Positions 58,624-64,000 of a stretch of DNA of 64,000 nucleotides are shown one piece after another. Each line of letters begins with the position of its first letter. The first letter of the stretch is position 1. The notes beneath the pieces were generated by a model. That model made no database searches. It was not told the DNA's origin and saw nothing but the letters and a program-made list of their open reading frames with translations. The DNA lies in contig CAIZRK010000019.1 in assembly GCA_903935355.1 (NCBI GenBank), forward strand, positions 62,001-126,000. The letters are read 5' to 3'. Position numbers and translations under genes: made by a program. This DNA is from an uncultured beta proteobacterium (GTDB taxonomy: Bacteria > Pseudomonadota > Gammaproteobacteria > Burkholderiales > Burkholderiaceae).

Positions 58624-61083
58624 TTAACGCTTTCGATTCATAACAGCAAAACCGAGTGAAGTTATAAGATATCCAGCCGCAATAGTGCCTACTCCTAGGA
58701 CTGCGCCAAGAGAGATAGCGACACCAAAAAGAGCTGGCCCAGTCAATTGACCAATCTTTTTCATTGCGCTGTAAAAACTCAGTGCCTTACCATGGCCAAG
58801 GTTCTCAGAGCTTGGAAGCGAAATGAAGTAACTATTTTGAGAAACGAGGCCAATAGAATCAGAGATTCCTAAAATCAAAATAGCTATTAAAGCCCCTAAA
58901 AAGGTGGGTAGAGAGCAAAAGACTACGAGTGCTAATGTCCCTAGAAAGCAAGAGACAAGAATAATCACTTTCTCAGGCACAGTGCCAATCAGTTTTTTCA
59001 TGAGAAAAGGACCAACAAAAATGATGCATATCCCATAGAGTAAAAATCCTCTACCGATATCGCCTTGAGTGATATTGATCGAATTAGAAAATACTGGGAA
59101 AAAATAAGTGAGGAAAGACGAAGTCACTGCGGTTGGAATAGTAATTAACAAAAAGAAAATTAAAGTTTCTCTATCCATGAAGAAACGACGAACAGCACTC
59201 TTTTTGAACTCGCCCCCTGTAATTACTGGCCTAGAGTTGACTGTCAAGAGGAAGGTGAACGGAATAGCTATAAACACCAAGCACGATGACAAAATTAAAA
59301 CTGGAGAGAACCCAAGTCGTTGTGCTAGCAGTGCACCCAAAACAGCGCCACAGTTTTGGCCTGCGAAAATACCAGCATTTAGAATAGAAAATCCATGTGT
59401 TCTTTGGTGAGGAGTTTGACCAGTAGCCACAAATCCCCGTAGCCCCATCCAAGCTGCTCCATACCCAACACCCACGATTGCGCGAATGAAAATAAACTCG
59501 ACTGGACTTTGAACCAAACCTGATGCCAATGTTGCTAAGGCTAATATCACAAATCCGCCAATGAATATGGATCTCCAGCCATATTTATCAATTGCATGAC
59601 CAACTAGTAATGATGCTACAAAGGCCCCAAACATCTCCGAGGCGATTGGTAGGGCAATAATAAAACTAGGAGAAAGTCCCCAGAGAGGCGCATAAATCTC
59701 TTTCATTAGCAAGGGTATGAAAGAGATCGACGTGTAACTACATAAGAGCAGTAAAAATCCAAGTACTCTTACACAATTTTCATTTTGGCCTTTAACTGCT
59801 ACTGAATTTAACGGCGCTGTCTGTAGTGACAAATTTTTATAGGATTTTTGAATATAGCCTGTCAACAAAATAATGATGAAGACTAAGGTTTCAACCAAAA
59901 AGAAAATTGATACCACGAACATCGTTAAGGCATCTAAACTAAGGTCGATTAATTTTTGATAGATGTTTGATTTGGAGACAGCCACAGATAAGATGGCAGA
60001 TTCTCCTTGCGCGTCTTGACCAAGGCGTCTTGTAACTTCTGGAAATCCAATGTCTATAAATGACTCTAATTGGTTTTCTTCAGGCTTATTCTGGCTTGCT
60101 TTTAACGGTAAGTCTTTTGAAGCCTCCTGAGAAGCTTGTATAGATGAAGAAAATAGTAACTTATTATCGCTATTCCTTAGCTTAACATGATCTATCTCCT
60201 TTACAGGTGCCACCAGATTACTTAACCAATCGTCGACACCATCCAATTCTTGGTAGGAAAAACCAAGACGTACAACATGAGCAATTCTATTGCTAATAAT
60301 ATCTGCGGCTATATTTAGATTATTTTCAACAACTTTGAAATAAGCATCCCGAAATGAGACTACATTTATTGCTCCAAAAGAAGCCTGGGCTACTCCTAAT
60401 ACAAGGGTCAAAGCAATAGTCAGACCCCGTTTTTTAAGTTGATACTGGGCATCTAAAAGCTTAAGACGATATACAAGAAAAACTACCGCAAAGATAGCGA
60501 TGATCGAAATTAACCCCATTATTTTAATGGTGTCATAAATATACGCAGACATTTGCGATAAGACACTCTCCTCGCTAAATACGATATCTATTGAGGCTAT
60601 CCAATTTCCCGCTGAATCTCGCAGAGGTATTAATGCGTGATAGCGATGATCTACTAGCAACCAAGCGTTTGCTTTTTCTTTCTTTCTACTTGAGAAATCA
60701 AACTTAGACAATAGCTTTTCCGAAAGTATCTCAGACTCATTAGGTCCAGATAAGTCGTACAAGGCTTTGCCATTAGGCAATACGATATAGACATTTTCTA
60801 CGGCAAGAGATTGATGTTTTATGCTAGATAATATTTCATTGATGCCTGCAAAATTATTCAATGGCTTGTGATACTTAATTGAATACTCAATTGTGCGACG
60901 GGCCTCACTACCTGCAACACCGTAAGAAGAAACTAGAGAGTCAATATAGCCCTTCTGAAATGAGCCTATATTCAGAAAACCAGTGATAAGCAAAACAAAT
61001 ACCACCAAAATAGAGGCTAAGATTGCAACATAACGCCGCGTTCGCTGAAGATAAAGTGCTTGAGGGGCGTTATTCTGCATCAC
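58624..61083 (-). CDS. MFS transporter fused to two periplasmic sensor-like domains
   Basis: 819 residues. Helix 1 (18-39), periplasmic domain 1 (about 40-185, with VENVYIVLPNGKALYDLSG and DSAGNWIASIDIVF like Cache/PAS-type sensors), helices 2-3 (186-207 and 221-240), periplasmic domain 2 (about 241-382, with VKEIDHVKLRNSDNKLLFSS), helix 4 (384-411), then a 12-helix MFS transporter (435-819) with motif-A-like GHAIDKYGWR. The MFS part resembles drug/sugar efflux MFS carriers. No kinase or cyclase output is present, so ligand binding may gate transport (inference). Coupled by ATGA to the PF04392 gene. Confidence 0.8.
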   Translation of the reverse strand: MMQNNAPQALYLQRTRRYVAILASILVVFVLLITGFLNIGSFQKGYIDSLVSSYGVAGSEARRTIEYSIKYHKPLNNFAGINEILSSIKHQSLAVENVYIVLPNGKALYDLSGPNESEILSEKLLSKFDFSSRKKEKANAWLLVDHRYHALIPLRDSAGNWIASIDIVFSEESVLSQMSAYIYDTIKIMGLISIIAIFAVVFLVYRLKLLDAQYQLKKRGLTIALTLVLGVAQASFGAINVVSFRDAYFKVVENNLNIAADIISNRIAHVVRLGFSYQELDGVDDWLSNLVAPVKEIDHVKLRNSDNKLLFSSSIQASQEASKDLPLKASQNKPEENQLESFIDIGFPEVTRRLGQDAQGESAILSVAVSKSNIYQKLIDLSLDALTMFVVSIFFLVETLVFIIILLTGYIQKSYKNLSLQTAPLNSVAVKGQNENCVRVLGFLLLLCSYTSISFIPLLMKEIYAPLWGLSPSFIIALPIASEMFGAFVASLLVGHAIDKYGWRSIFIGGFVILALATLASGLVQSPVEFIFIRAIVGVGYGAAWMGLRGFVATGQTPHQRTHGFSILNAGIFAGQNCGAVLGALLAQRLGFSPVLILSSCLVFIAIPFTFLLTVNSRPVITGGEFKKSAVRRFFMDRETLIFFLLITIPTAVTSSFLTYFFPVFSNSINITQGDIGRGFLLYGICIIFVGPFLMKKLIGTVPEKVIILVSCFLGTLALVVFCSLPTFLGALIAILILGISDSIGLVSQNSYFISLPSSENLGHGKALSFYSAMKKIGQLTGPALFGVAISLGAVLGVGTIAAGYLITSLGFAVMNRKR

Positions 61084-62288
61084 TTTGCCGCCTTAATGGT
61101 TTGATCAGCCCCTAGCAACAATTCAAATCGTGGACGAAATCCAATTTCTTTGGCAATATCAAGATTAATAATGATATTAGGGCTATTTTCATAAATTTGT
61201 GAGATTTTACTTGGCGATTCACCCTTCAGTATTCGCACCATAGCGCGTGCATTGAAGGCCCCAACACCAGAGAAATTTTGGCGTGCTAAGCTCATTAGCG
61301 CTCCACTAGAAACATCATTAGATTGCTGTGCGAAAACCGGAATCTTCCTTGAAACAAGAGGCTCTAGTTCATAAGCCAACTGGGTTGGATCATTGCCAAT
61401 AAATAAACCCAAATAAACAGCATCAACTTGTGGCGCCAAACGAGTAAATGCCGCCCTAAGATCTTCTGCAAATTGTTTTTTGTTTGCACTATATTTTGGA
61501 GGTTGTTGAATATTTTCGAAAACTACCTCGAATTGACGACTTTTTGCTACATTTAAAACATCATCAATGGCTGCAAAACTTCTACCAGCCGTGTCATCAT
61601 CGTAAACAACACCCAATTTTTTAAATTTGAAAATATCATAAAAGATATCCATTTGCCGCTTGTAGCGATATGGATCCATATGCGCCCAAACTTGATCAAC
61701 TCCAGAAAACTCTGCCCCCTTCACGATCCCCGCCTCCATTGCATTGCTAGTGGACATCGACACAATAGGAATAGTTATTTCATAAGGCAATATTTTTTCA
61801 GCTGCAACGGTACCCATTGCCAGCACCAAATCAACTCCATTAGCCTGAGATAGTCTTTGCGCAATCTGTTGTGCACGAGCATCTACTTTATCGACCTTTA
61901 GCTTGTCAAAGGTATAAAAACCATTTTCAAGAAATTGCAGATAAGGCTCATCTTTTTTCTGAGCCATCCACGCCCAAATAATCTGGGCATCAACCTGGCC
62001 CTTAACGTAAGGAAGGCCTTCAATTGATTTGATCCAGCCCATCTTATGAAGGGCAATCACCATATTGGCTAAGGTAGCTGCATAGTTGGCAAATGGTCTA
62101 GCTTCGATATAGGCAATGCGCCAAGGAGCACCTTGATGAGTAACTGGGGCTAATGAAAGTGTGGGGTTATTTGTTTGTGCTAATACTGCTGATGAGAAAG
62201 TACCCATCATCATGCTAAACATGAAAACTAGTGTTAAGACAATCTTTTTCAAGAGGCTTTTAAAATAAATGGTGATTAGTTTTTGCAT
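61080..62288 (-). CDS. ABC-type substrate-binding protein (PF04392-like)
   Basis: 402 residues with a Sec signal (cleavage near SAVLAQ, residue 38). The mature protein has two periplasmic-binding lobes: WRIAYIEARPFANYAATLAN, DLVLAMGTVAAEKIL, IPIVSMSTSNAMEAG, EFSGVDQVWAHMDPYRYKRQ, KLGVVYDDDTAGRS and IPVFAQQSNDVSSGALMSLA. Typical of PF04392 proteins, which often work with sensors rather than ABC permeases. No permease is adjacent. It overlaps the GNAT gene by 29 bp and has an AGGTAGGG site at its start. Confidence 0.83.
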   Translation of the reverse strand: MQKLITIYFKSLLKKIVLTLVFMFSMMMGTFSSAVLAQTNNPTLSLAPVTHQGAPWRIAYIEARPFANYAATLANMVIALHKMGWIKSIEGLPYVKGQVDAQIIWAWMAQKKDEPYLQFLENGFYTFDKLKVDKVDARAQQIAQRLSQANGVDLVLAMGTVAAEKILPYEITIPIVSMSTSNAMEAGIVKGAEFSGVDQVWAHMDPYRYKRQMDIFYDIFKFKKLGVVYDDDTAGRSFAAIDDVLNVAKSRQFEVVFENIQQPPKYSANKKQFAEDLRAAFTRLAPQVDAVYLGLFIGNDPTQLAYELEPLVSRKIPVFAQQSNDVSSGALMSLARQNFSGVGAFNARAMVRILKGESPSKISQIYENSPNIIINLDIAKEIGFRPRFELLLGADQTIKAAK

Positions 62289-63015
62289 ACCCTACCTGCG
62301 TAATACCATTATTTTTTTTCTGCTGAAATCCAACAATTGCTCCTTTATTCTTTAGGAGGCTCATTTGAGCATCAATATCATCACCGTCTATATATATCAG
62401 TGGTACATCTGGTTCAGAGGGAAAAAGAATAGGATCAGAAATATCTTGAAAGAAGATATACCGGTAGTACGACTCATATTTTTTCTTAAGCTCTACTATG
62501 ACCATATTAGCCTCGAATTTATCTTGCATACTTGCATAATTCATAGGGGCTACTGTCGAGAAGATATAGCGAAAGCATTTATTGTGCCTGGCCAATTCAA
62601 TCGCATGGCGAGTCATGGTAATTTGTAGGCGATTACCCCTAAAATCCGGAAGTACGCATGCCCGCTCTAAATGTGCTACTTCAGATAATTGATCAGGTGC
62701 TTTCATGCCTATATCTATCCCCAAGTTCTCTGAATGCTCATGTGGATACCAAATGGACCTAAAACCCACTAAACGCCCCTCAACTAAACAGCCAATAATC
62801 AAGCCTTTGCCATTTAAGGATTCATGAAAGATCTGACGGGAGCTTGGATAGTAAAAAGATAGCTCTTCAATGGTGCCTAACACCATTTCTTGAACTTTCA
62901 GTACGGCTTCAAGGTAATTTGGTCCCAAAATGGCGATTTCAAACTCTCTAGGTAGCCCATCAGATTGGCGAGTAATGCGGCCAGTTTCAAGAATAGTTAG
63001 CGAGCGAGAAATCAT
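62260..63015 (-). CDS. GNAT-like acyltransferase
   Basis: 251 residues with a GNAT fold: VEGRLVGFRSIWYPH in the central strands, then LERACVLPDFRGNRLQITMTR near 115-135 as the acyl-CoA loop, and a long C-terminal extension (YYRYIFFQDISDP). Acetyl or longer acyl donor unknown; it differs from the protein-acetylase type at 43133. First gene of the - strand operon feeding into the binding protein and the sensor-MFS. Confidence 0.78.
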   Translation of the reverse strand: MISRSLTILETGRITRQSDGLPREFEIAILGPNYLEAVLKVQEMVLGTIEELSFYYPSSRQIFHESLNGKGLIIGCLVEGRLVGFRSIWYPHEHSENLGIDIGMKAPDQLSEVAHLERACVLPDFRGNRLQITMTRHAIELARHNKCFRYIFSTVAPMNYASMQDKFEANMVIVELKKKYESYYRYIFFQDISDPILFPSEPDVPLIYIDGDDIDAQMSLLKNKGAIVGFQQKKNNGITQVGYAKTNHHLF

Positions 63016-63112: not shown

Positions 63113-64000
63113 ATGTCTAAAATAAATAGGCCCAATAATCGCGAGAGCCCTTATATAGAAAACCAGTTTGTAGTTACCGTCATTGATGAAGCACGTGCGA
63201 TTTGGTTATTTATGAGGCATCAATGGTATTACGCGCTTGCAGTCATTTTAGCTATTGCCGTACTCATTTTCTATTTTGAGCCACTTCCCCCTAGTCACAT
63301 CCGACTATCTAAAGGTCAGCCAAATTCCAGCCTAGAAGTGGAGGCAAAGTATTTTAAGCAAGCGCTTGAAGAAAATGGCATTAAAACAGAGTTAATTGAA
63401 TCTAAAGGGACGCTCGATAGCCTTAAGTTATTAGAGGATAAAAAAGTGGACATAGCGCTCTCTCAATCAGGCCTGCCAATTAAAAGAAGTTCAGATATTG
63501 TTTCTTTAGGAAGCTTGGGGTATCAAGCATTGTGGTTTTTTTATGTAGGACCGCAATTTCAAGGAGACGATATTTCTAGAAGCTTTGAAAATAAAAAGAT
63601 TTATATAAATCGTCCAGGTAGCGGTACTAACTTCATGGTAGAAAAACTACTCAAAATCTATCAAAAGCAGCGCACTATTACATTCCAAAAAATTGATGAT
63701 CTGAGCCCTCAACAAGCTGTTGAAGCACTAAAAATAGGAAAAATTGACGGCATGTTTTTACTCGCTGGCTATGATTCACTTAATGTTCAATCCTTACTTG
63801 CCGATCCCAAAGTCCAGATACTTAATTTTCCTGTTGCCCAAGCTTTATCTTTAGAAATCAAAGGGGTTGATATTGTGACTTTACCCAAAGGGGTTTTCTC
63901 ACTATCACCACCCCGCCCCACTCAAGATATCAAAATGGTGGCGGTGGCAACAACACTTTTTGCTAAAAAAAATCTGCACCCAGAAATTCAATATTTATTA
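63113..64000 (+). CDS. TAXI-family binding protein, membrane-anchored (3' partial)
   Basis: Open from ATG 63113 to the window end (296 codons). Residues 40-55 (YALAVILAIAVLIFYF) form one membrane helix after a cytosolic basic N-terminus, not a cleavable signal. The periplasmic part is like TAXI solute receptors: HIRLSKGQPNSSLEVEAKYF, KKVDIALSQSGLP, IYINRPGSGTNFMVEKLL and IGKIDGMFLLAGYDS. No TRAP permease is visible in the window. It diverges from the GNAT operon. Confidence 0.83.
   Translation, partial: MSKINRPNNRESPYIENQFVVTVIDEARAIWLFMRHQWYYALAVILAIAVLIFYFEPLPPSHIRLSKGQPNSSLEVEAKYFKQALEENGIKTELIESKGTLDSLKLLEDKKVDIALSQSGLPIKRSSDIVSLGSLGYQALWFFYVGPQFQGDDISRSFENKKIYINRPGSGTNFMVEKLLKIYQKQRTITFQKIDDLSPQQAVEALKIGKIDGMFLLAGYDSLNVQSLLADPKVQILNFPVAQALSLEIKGVDIVTLPKGVFSLSPPRPTQDIKMVAVATTLFAKKNLHPEIQYLL

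Follow-up and report, generated by a model that had tools for sequence, protein, structure and literature searches.

The window, the whole 64,000-nucleotide stretch of DNA analysed here, encodes a transporter of the major facilitator superfamily (MFS) that is preceded, in the same chain, by two sensor-like extracytoplasmic domains. Control of secondary carriers is commonly ascribed to their substrate, to an ion gradient or to gene expression, and the locus raises the question of what such a carrier does with sensors of its own. A reading of the sequence alone had proposed that the domains sense a ligand and gate transport directly. Our answer, which we put forward tentatively, is that the protein represents a widespread, undescribed transport machine, an MFS carrier with tandem Cache domains that is read through a dedicated solute-binding protein (SBP).

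The sensor-fused carrier

The carrier is encoded on the minus strand in a single open frame of 819 codons counted from a GTG at 61083, in a host genome assembly of 44 contigs (1.8 Mb in total). Translation most probably starts at the ATG at 61080, which shares its A with the end of the upstream gene's TGA; this gives a protein of 818 residues (58624..61080). The sequence-only reading had correctly seen a frame at 58624-61083, with the strand left unstated and the less likely start. From the N- to the C-terminus the chain consists of a helix, a domain, two helices, a second domain, a helix and a 12-helix MFS core. This order, as read earlier from the sequence, agrees with the open frame and with the AlphaFold2 model of the full carrier (51 aligned sequences, mean pLDDT 89.0, pTM 0.88), which has a helix at residues 5-69, an alpha/beta domain up to 169, helices at 170-205 and 217-271, a second alpha/beta domain up to 368 with a stretch of low prediction quality at 325-343, a helix at 370-418 and twelve helices at 425-814. 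The sole Pfam family in the protein is MFS_1 (residues 443-783, E 4.2e-28, 98.7 bits against a cut-off of 33.4), in line with the proposal that the transporter is the only output domain. In seven annotated plasmid records the family carrier is named just "MFS transporter".

The first periplasmic domain (residues 38-184; 60529..60969, minus strand) was placed by structure. Pfam gave no family for the N-terminal 436-437 residues at E 0.1, a sequence search of the PDB with the N-terminus gave no match at E 10, and the same search with a 51-row N-terminal profile gave seven matches with a best E of 0.12. The N-terminal part was modelled by AlphaFold2 on its own (pLDDT 88.0), and VIA-align matched this model to WalK (Z 13.4, 135 residues, rmsd 3.0), DcuS (Z 12.6, 124 residues, rmsd 2.6) and CitA (Z 12.3, 123 residues, rmsd 3.0), in rows that lie mostly over domain 1 and with Z scores that are liable to inflation by long helices. 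WalK also takes Foldseek ranks 1-3. Foldseek ranks LuxQ 6th and 14th, but the two structures superpose poorly (for the 6th row, an rmsd of 22 over 355 columns and a target TM-score of 0.40), and the 50 VIA-align rows listed do not contain it. As modelled, domain 1 is thus of the Cache/extracytoplasmic PAS fold. The second domain (residues 240-386; 59923..60363, minus strand) is, by profile-profile comparison (probability 98.3%, E 2.2e-14) and the AlphaFold2 model, a homologue of the first, and is assigned to Cache through that homology. The suggestion that both loops are sensor-like has therefore held, and the concern that they might match no ligand-binding fold is answered for domain 1 by WalK, DcuS and CitA. 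Among 51 relatives searched at E up to 0.1, five match the Pfam family dCache_1, the best of them at 4.1e-6. Since no Pfam Cache family matches the window protein, we liken it to Cache by fold and do not file it there by profile. The near-invariant positions of domain 1 are 71 (glycine; histidine in the window protein), K72, G79, L84, G104 and G162, which are mostly not pocket-like.

The fourth N-terminal helix (residues 370-418; 59827..59973, minus strand) leads into the MFS core (residues 425-814; 58639..59808, minus strand) and carries T386 and E397, present in all 51 fused rows of the alignment, and D383, present in 47. E397 also occurs in 10 of 10 carriers whose chain is split over two genes, in none of three kinase or GGDEF sensors and in none of six domain-1 helices. 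R438, E482 and R677 were found in all 26 sensor-MFS proteins sampled from the 51, as opposed to none of 18 ordinary MFS proteins; the split carriers looked at keep E397 and R438 and have phenylalanine in place of E482. The MFS motif residues G501, R533, G537 and G574 (26 of 26) and D498 (23 of 26) are kept much as in ordinary carriers. The best Foldseek matches of the core are the exporters MdfA (target TM-score 0.81), VMAT2 and NorA, with the symporter 6e9n at rank 13, which is a weak hint of export from a predicted fold that does not set direction. Antiporter motif C has a proline at the position corresponding to residue 579; here the glycines of the motif are retained, and in 48 of 51 rows position 579 holds A, S, T or V. 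In the tree, 38 sensor-MFS and 18 ordinary MFS proteins fall on opposite sides of one branch (SH-aLRT 98), but the fast tree search raised long-branch warnings, including one where the two groups meet, so that the deep branching order is unsure.

Conservation and spread of the fusion

The same layout is found in one frame in P. hirudinilacicola, at 62% identity. A scan of a contig collection with the single protein gave 136 pattern stretches and no relative, and an alignment of 12 rows was too diverse to serve as query; with an alignment of four rows the scan gave 78 loci, 65 of which align in tblastn from residue 60 or earlier to residue 782 or later. On plasmids tblastn gave 73 records, four of them with at least 80% query coverage. 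Many of the 73 are ordinary MFS proteins; Rhizobium accounts for 49, and the Rhizobium records listed align with roughly one fifth of the query. Altogether 83 plasmid and contig loci (L075-L157) have N-terminal and MFS profile matches in one frame; contig ends truncate two of these (L146 and L152), and 54 remain after an 80% identity filter. The hosts of fused loci include Pseudomonadota, Acidobacteriota, Bacillota, Thermodesulfobacteriota and, by the label of the tree program, Myxococcota, several of the organisms being metagenome bins whose contigs may be misassigned.

Within the genus the close N-terminal homologue is rare, being present in 3 of 186 genomes, namely the window's own, one with an intact copy (59%) and one with a broken copy. 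The sequence-only reading had reckoned with a fusion that is absent from close relatives or made by an assembly join, but such a join, or a chance read-through of two genes, is ruled out in spite of this rarity by the one-frame fusion in P. hirudinilacicola and across the 83 plasmid and contig loci from several phyla, and is also at odds with the family-specific invariant residues. Another genome of the genus, G156, has a divergent form of 774 residues, which the N-terminal search missed and a whole-protein search found. In G275, also of this genus, the locus is decayed: stops or frameshifts interrupt the genes for the carrier, the GNAT and the TAXI protein, and some of the adjacent genes look broken as well. 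A two-row profile matches 11 of 399 genomes of the order and 7 of 398 of the phylum at E 0.01, and the 51-row profile matches 19 of 299 genomes of the phylum at E 1e-5; the genus, order and phylum counts include the window's own genome, and those for order and phylum include Cache receptors that are not carriers. The N-terminal profile, when iterated on the open frames of the loci, also matches other Cache receptors, and its hits therefore mean Cache-like rather than this carrier family. The clade of seven that includes the window protein (SH-aLRT 100) is made up of two Polynucleobacter, two Azospirillum and one bin each of Thermoanaerobaculia, Polaromonas and Clostridiaceae. This mixed clade, together with the rarity in the genus, suggests that the carrier has been transferred horizontally, as far as sequences can tell.

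A split variant is found in other genomes of the order and the phylum, in a Vibrio and on an A. brasilense plasmid. It consists of two genes, the first for helix-Cache-helix and the second for helix-Cache-helix-linker-MFS. The linker matches HAMP in three of four split carriers scanned (22.8, 19.2 and 16.3 bits, all under the Pfam cut-off of 25). The fused form of G156 groups with two split ones (SH-aLRT 97), and fusion may therefore have arisen more than once, to judge by the tree. Related sensors also occur on other outputs: on a histidine kinase in G795 (Pfam sCache_3_2, 56.2 bits, cut-off 28.4) and another in G803 (a homologue by sequence), and on a GGDEF-EAL protein in G532, in each case directly beside an SBP gene. 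Near the split carriers of G781 and G646 lie a Cache-HAMP protein kinase and a Cache-HAMP cyclase, respectively.

The solute-binding protein and other neighbours

The gene upstream of the carrier (61080..62288, minus strand) encodes an SBP of family PF04392, ABC_sub_bind (Pfam 63.8 bits, cut-off 25.9), and is the only PF04392 gene found in the genome. Its stop codon overlaps the carrier start codon by one base, and its N-terminus is, by eye, signal-peptide-like. The SBP profile matches the solved binding proteins 6hni, 3lkv and 3lft. Against the model of the tryptophan-binding protein TrpX the SBP scores 46 bits, far under the cut-off of 390, which may be taken as a weak hint about the ligand. 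The apparent operon begins with a GNAT-type acyltransferase (62260..63015, minus strand; Pfam Acetyltransf_1 26.4 bits, cut-off 20.7), homologues of which flank the SBP-MFS pair in relatives. Divergently oriented is a TAXI/NMT1-like binding protein of 463 residues (63113..64000, plus strand, running past the window edge to L158:2005; Pfam NMT1_3 51.8 bits, cut-off 27), which has hydrophobic stretches close to each end; by eye, its surroundings contain no TRAP permease. Its link to the carrier system is uncertain; P. hirudinilacicola has two such genes in tandem beside its SBP-MFS system. We saw no regulator gene adjoining the window system by eye.

The pairing of SBP and sensor is not a property of the window only. 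From a set of twenty genomes with sensor matches, 18 were searched (15 with carriers, three with other receptors), and in all 18 a PF04392 gene adjoins the sensor gene; the two left out, G275 (broken) and G522 (fragmentary), both have an SBP match in the locus stretch. The 18 genomes hold 34 PF04392 genes in about 73 Mb (summed from rounded sizes), a density at which such a gene would fall in a 12-kb stretch by chance in about 0.6% of cases, and in G000, P. hirudinilacicola (G263) and G156 the one beside the sensor gene is the only one of the genome. We scanned 103 loci, and set aside two repeats (L081 of L036, L145 of L059), one broken locus (L037) and three that are not MFS (L067, L073 and L074). 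The SBP is present in 88 of the remaining 97 sensor-MFS loci, among which Achromobacter and Bordetella are over-represented, and in 47 of the 54 non-redundant plasmid and contig loci at the 80% identity filter. No SBP match was seen in the available DNA of nine of the 97; five of these (L112, L129, L142, L146 and L152) are near contig ends, and the other four (L106, L116, L127 and L131) are flanked on each side by roughly 4 kb or more. The order and strand of the SBP gene relative to the carrier vary between loci. ABC-ATPase profiles match in nine of the 97 loci, never beside the SBP, and not at all in the window stretch.

The other neighbours in the 97 loci are a SpoIIE phosphatase (62), a GCS2-type ligase (47), a STAS protein (41), a GNAT of the window's type (9), TAXI (4) and an alanine racemase (43, with 11 more loci that have the N-terminal racemase domain only); these names rest on a few Pfam-scanned representatives per family and on profiles built in this analysis. 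Two names were rejected: a Desulfovibrionaceae-type neighbour family (11 loci) is not called a GCS2 ligase, as Pfam found no family in its representative, and the Clostridiaceae gene after the carrier in L082 is not called a GNAT, as it aligned at 18% identity and neither Pfam nor the GNAT profile supports it. In Achromobacter, Bordetella and relatives (L114, L102, L117 and similar loci) SBP, SpoIIE, carrier, alanine racemase and STAS genes, often with a GCS2-type ligase, form a conserved cluster, suggestive of partner switching linked to the chemistry of amino acids. The racemase, GCS2 and GNAT neighbours are a weak hint of an amino-acid-derived substrate, and we have considered a role of the carrier in self-resistance of the D-cycloserine kind. 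Just upstream of the fused carrier of G1067 (L070) is an ATP-grasp ligase-like gene, by eye similar to D-Ala-D-Ala ligase. In G1084 a second, apparently degenerate pair of sensor and carrier (L071:9856-12661) directly follows the first set and its SBP.

Two relatives of the carrier itself differ in their sensors. A family MFS protein of A. lipoferum (505 residues, L162:4731-6248) keeps helix 4 with E397 as well as R438 and has N-terminal hydrophobic stretches, and has neither a Cache match nor an SBP match in the surrounding 10.8 kb. This single case links the SBP with the Cache domains, both being absent together. Since the carrier keeps E397 and R438 without Cache domains, these residues may be structural rather than part of a relay. 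The gene is followed by an alpha/beta hydrolase and a histidine phosphatase gene, as seen near the split relatives L061, L063 and L065 and in G156. On an Oscillospiraceae plasmid, a family MFS protein of 1005 residues (L159:3231-6248) keeps E397 and R438 and lacks E482 and R677. Its first extracytoplasmic part appears by eye beta-propeller-like, followed by a Cache-like domain, which would make it a different sensor on the same type of carrier; no SBP match was found in 11 kb.

Proposed mechanism and known systems

What computation shows is the fusion, domain 1 as a Cache fold with domain 2 as its homologue, the gene-order partnership with the SBP and the family-specific charged residues. From these we infer the docking, the gating, the ligand and the direction of transport in the model that we favour, though with less than even confidence, namely that of an MFS carrier coupled to the SBP and controlled through its Cache domains. 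The periplasmic PF04392 protein would bind a small ligand, perhaps amino-acid-like, and, when loaded, would dock onto the carrier's two N-terminal Cache domains. From there the change would travel along helix 4 to the MFS core, whose transport activity it would set; that activity may be the export of a compound that the co-encoded GNAT has modified. Related sensors encoded beside an SBP gene are also found on the kinases and the GGDEF-EAL protein; here the carrier occupies the position of the output domain. The pairing suggests that the cell switches or feeds the transporter by sensing an outside molecule. The four loci with no SBP match in spite of both flanks, the retention of E397 and R438 in A. 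lipoferum, the loss of E482 in the split carriers looked at, the SpoIIE phosphatase as a possible other partner, the Oscillospiraceae relative with another sensor and no SBP match in 11 kb and the poor match to LuxQ speak against the coupling. The sequence-only reading had recognised the sensor fold, the lone output and the conserved fusion, and had missed the SBP gene, the gene cluster and the related sensors on kinases and a GGDEF-EAL protein.

An SBP without an adjoining ABC ATPase, encoded in a gene that overlaps that of the carrier and similar to solved binding proteins, could also hand its cargo to the carrier for uptake, so that the system would be an SBP-dependent secondary transporter, an MFS counterpart of TRAP and TTT in which the Cache domains are a docking platform and not a sensor. 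We consider this, the main rival, unlikely: the kinases and the GGDEF-EAL protein that bear related sensors beside SBP genes move no solute, and the best fold matches of the core are exporters, yet with 6e9n at rank 13 the fold is not decisive.

Cache domains often bind ligands directly, and direct sensing, as first proposed for this protein, would leave the SBP in the cluster for another reason, such as serving the SpoIIE phosphatase. In many relatives the SBP gene also adjoins the SpoIIE gene, whose product could there be the partner of the SBP; in a scan of two such phosphatases, Cache and HAMP-like parts were present in one and a HAMP part in the other. The frequency of SpoIIE genes and the four flanked loci that lack the SBP would fit this explanation. 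We nevertheless find it improbable, as in the window, P. hirudinilacicola and G156 (13-14 kb scanned) there is no SpoIIE match and no match to the sensor profile besides the carrier, and as the near-invariant positions of domain 1 are mostly not those of a pocket. G156 has a histidine kinase near its carrier system. With an SBP gene beside the sensor, sensing via the binding protein is at least as likely as direct sensing of the ligand.

A transceptor of the kind for which UhpC is the precedent, with an MFS core that transports at no useful rate and reports the state of the ligand to co-encoded regulators, would be in line with the SpoIIE (62 of 97) and STAS (41 of 97) genes and with the Cache-HAMP kinase and cyclase near the split carriers of G781 and G646. 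It seems distinctly improbable, since the core keeps the motif residues of ordinary carriers and no regulator was seen beside the window system.

The coupled carrier can be compared with several known systems. Among the open-licence papers listed, by title and beginning of abstract, none describes a Cache-MFS fusion or an SBP-dependent MFS protein; InterPro or TCDB may list the architecture. The window carrier shares its fold of 12 helices with DHA1-type MFS proteins such as MdfA, NorA and VMAT, the best rows reaching target TM-scores of about 0.8. What it adds are two periplasmic domains, four helices at the N-terminus and the residues R438, E482 and R677, which none of the 18 ordinary MFS proteins has. 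Its membrane-flanked Cache domains, and the sub-threshold HAMP match in three of four split carriers scanned, are shared with Cache chemoreceptors, kinases, c-di-GMP enzymes, phosphatases and cyclases. The classes of Cache output listed in the consulted part of PMC4822843 include ion channels and not carriers; the Cache models there derive from proteins whose signalling output was known and may have left carriers out. The SLC5-STAC histidine kinases CbrA and CrbS, in which a STAC domain links a signalling domain to the carrier, resemble the window protein in that carrier fold and signalling modules share one chain (PMC9100948); in the window protein the sensors come before the carrier, which bears no kinase.

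The pairing of a periplasmic SBP gene with a membrane transporter gene is a likeness to ABC, TRAP and TTT systems, named as examples of SBP users in the consulted part of PMC9602780. Here the membrane part is an MFS protein with Cache domains: Pfam finds MFS_1 only, and not DctQ/DctM or TctA/TctB, and in none of the 97 loci does an ABC-ATPase adjoin the SBP. If the proposed coupling is correct, MFS proteins would join the SBP-coupled transporters as a fourth class, and PF04392 proteins without an adjoining ABC partner would gain a role.

The SBP-dependent receptors LuxP-LuxQ, in which the SBP LuxP is the partner of LuxQ, NspS-MbaA and TorT-TorS likewise have an SBP gene beside that of a receptor with an extracytoplasmic domain of Cache/PAS type. 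Their output is a kinase or a c-di-GMP enzyme, whereas here it is an MFS carrier, with which the SBP is paired by gene position. The proposed system would be the first case of a receptor with a carrier as its output domain, often tied to partner-switching (SpoIIE/STAS) and to a set of amino-acid-modifying genes, and would mean that sensor modules can drive transport directly, with neither a kinase nor a second messenger between them.
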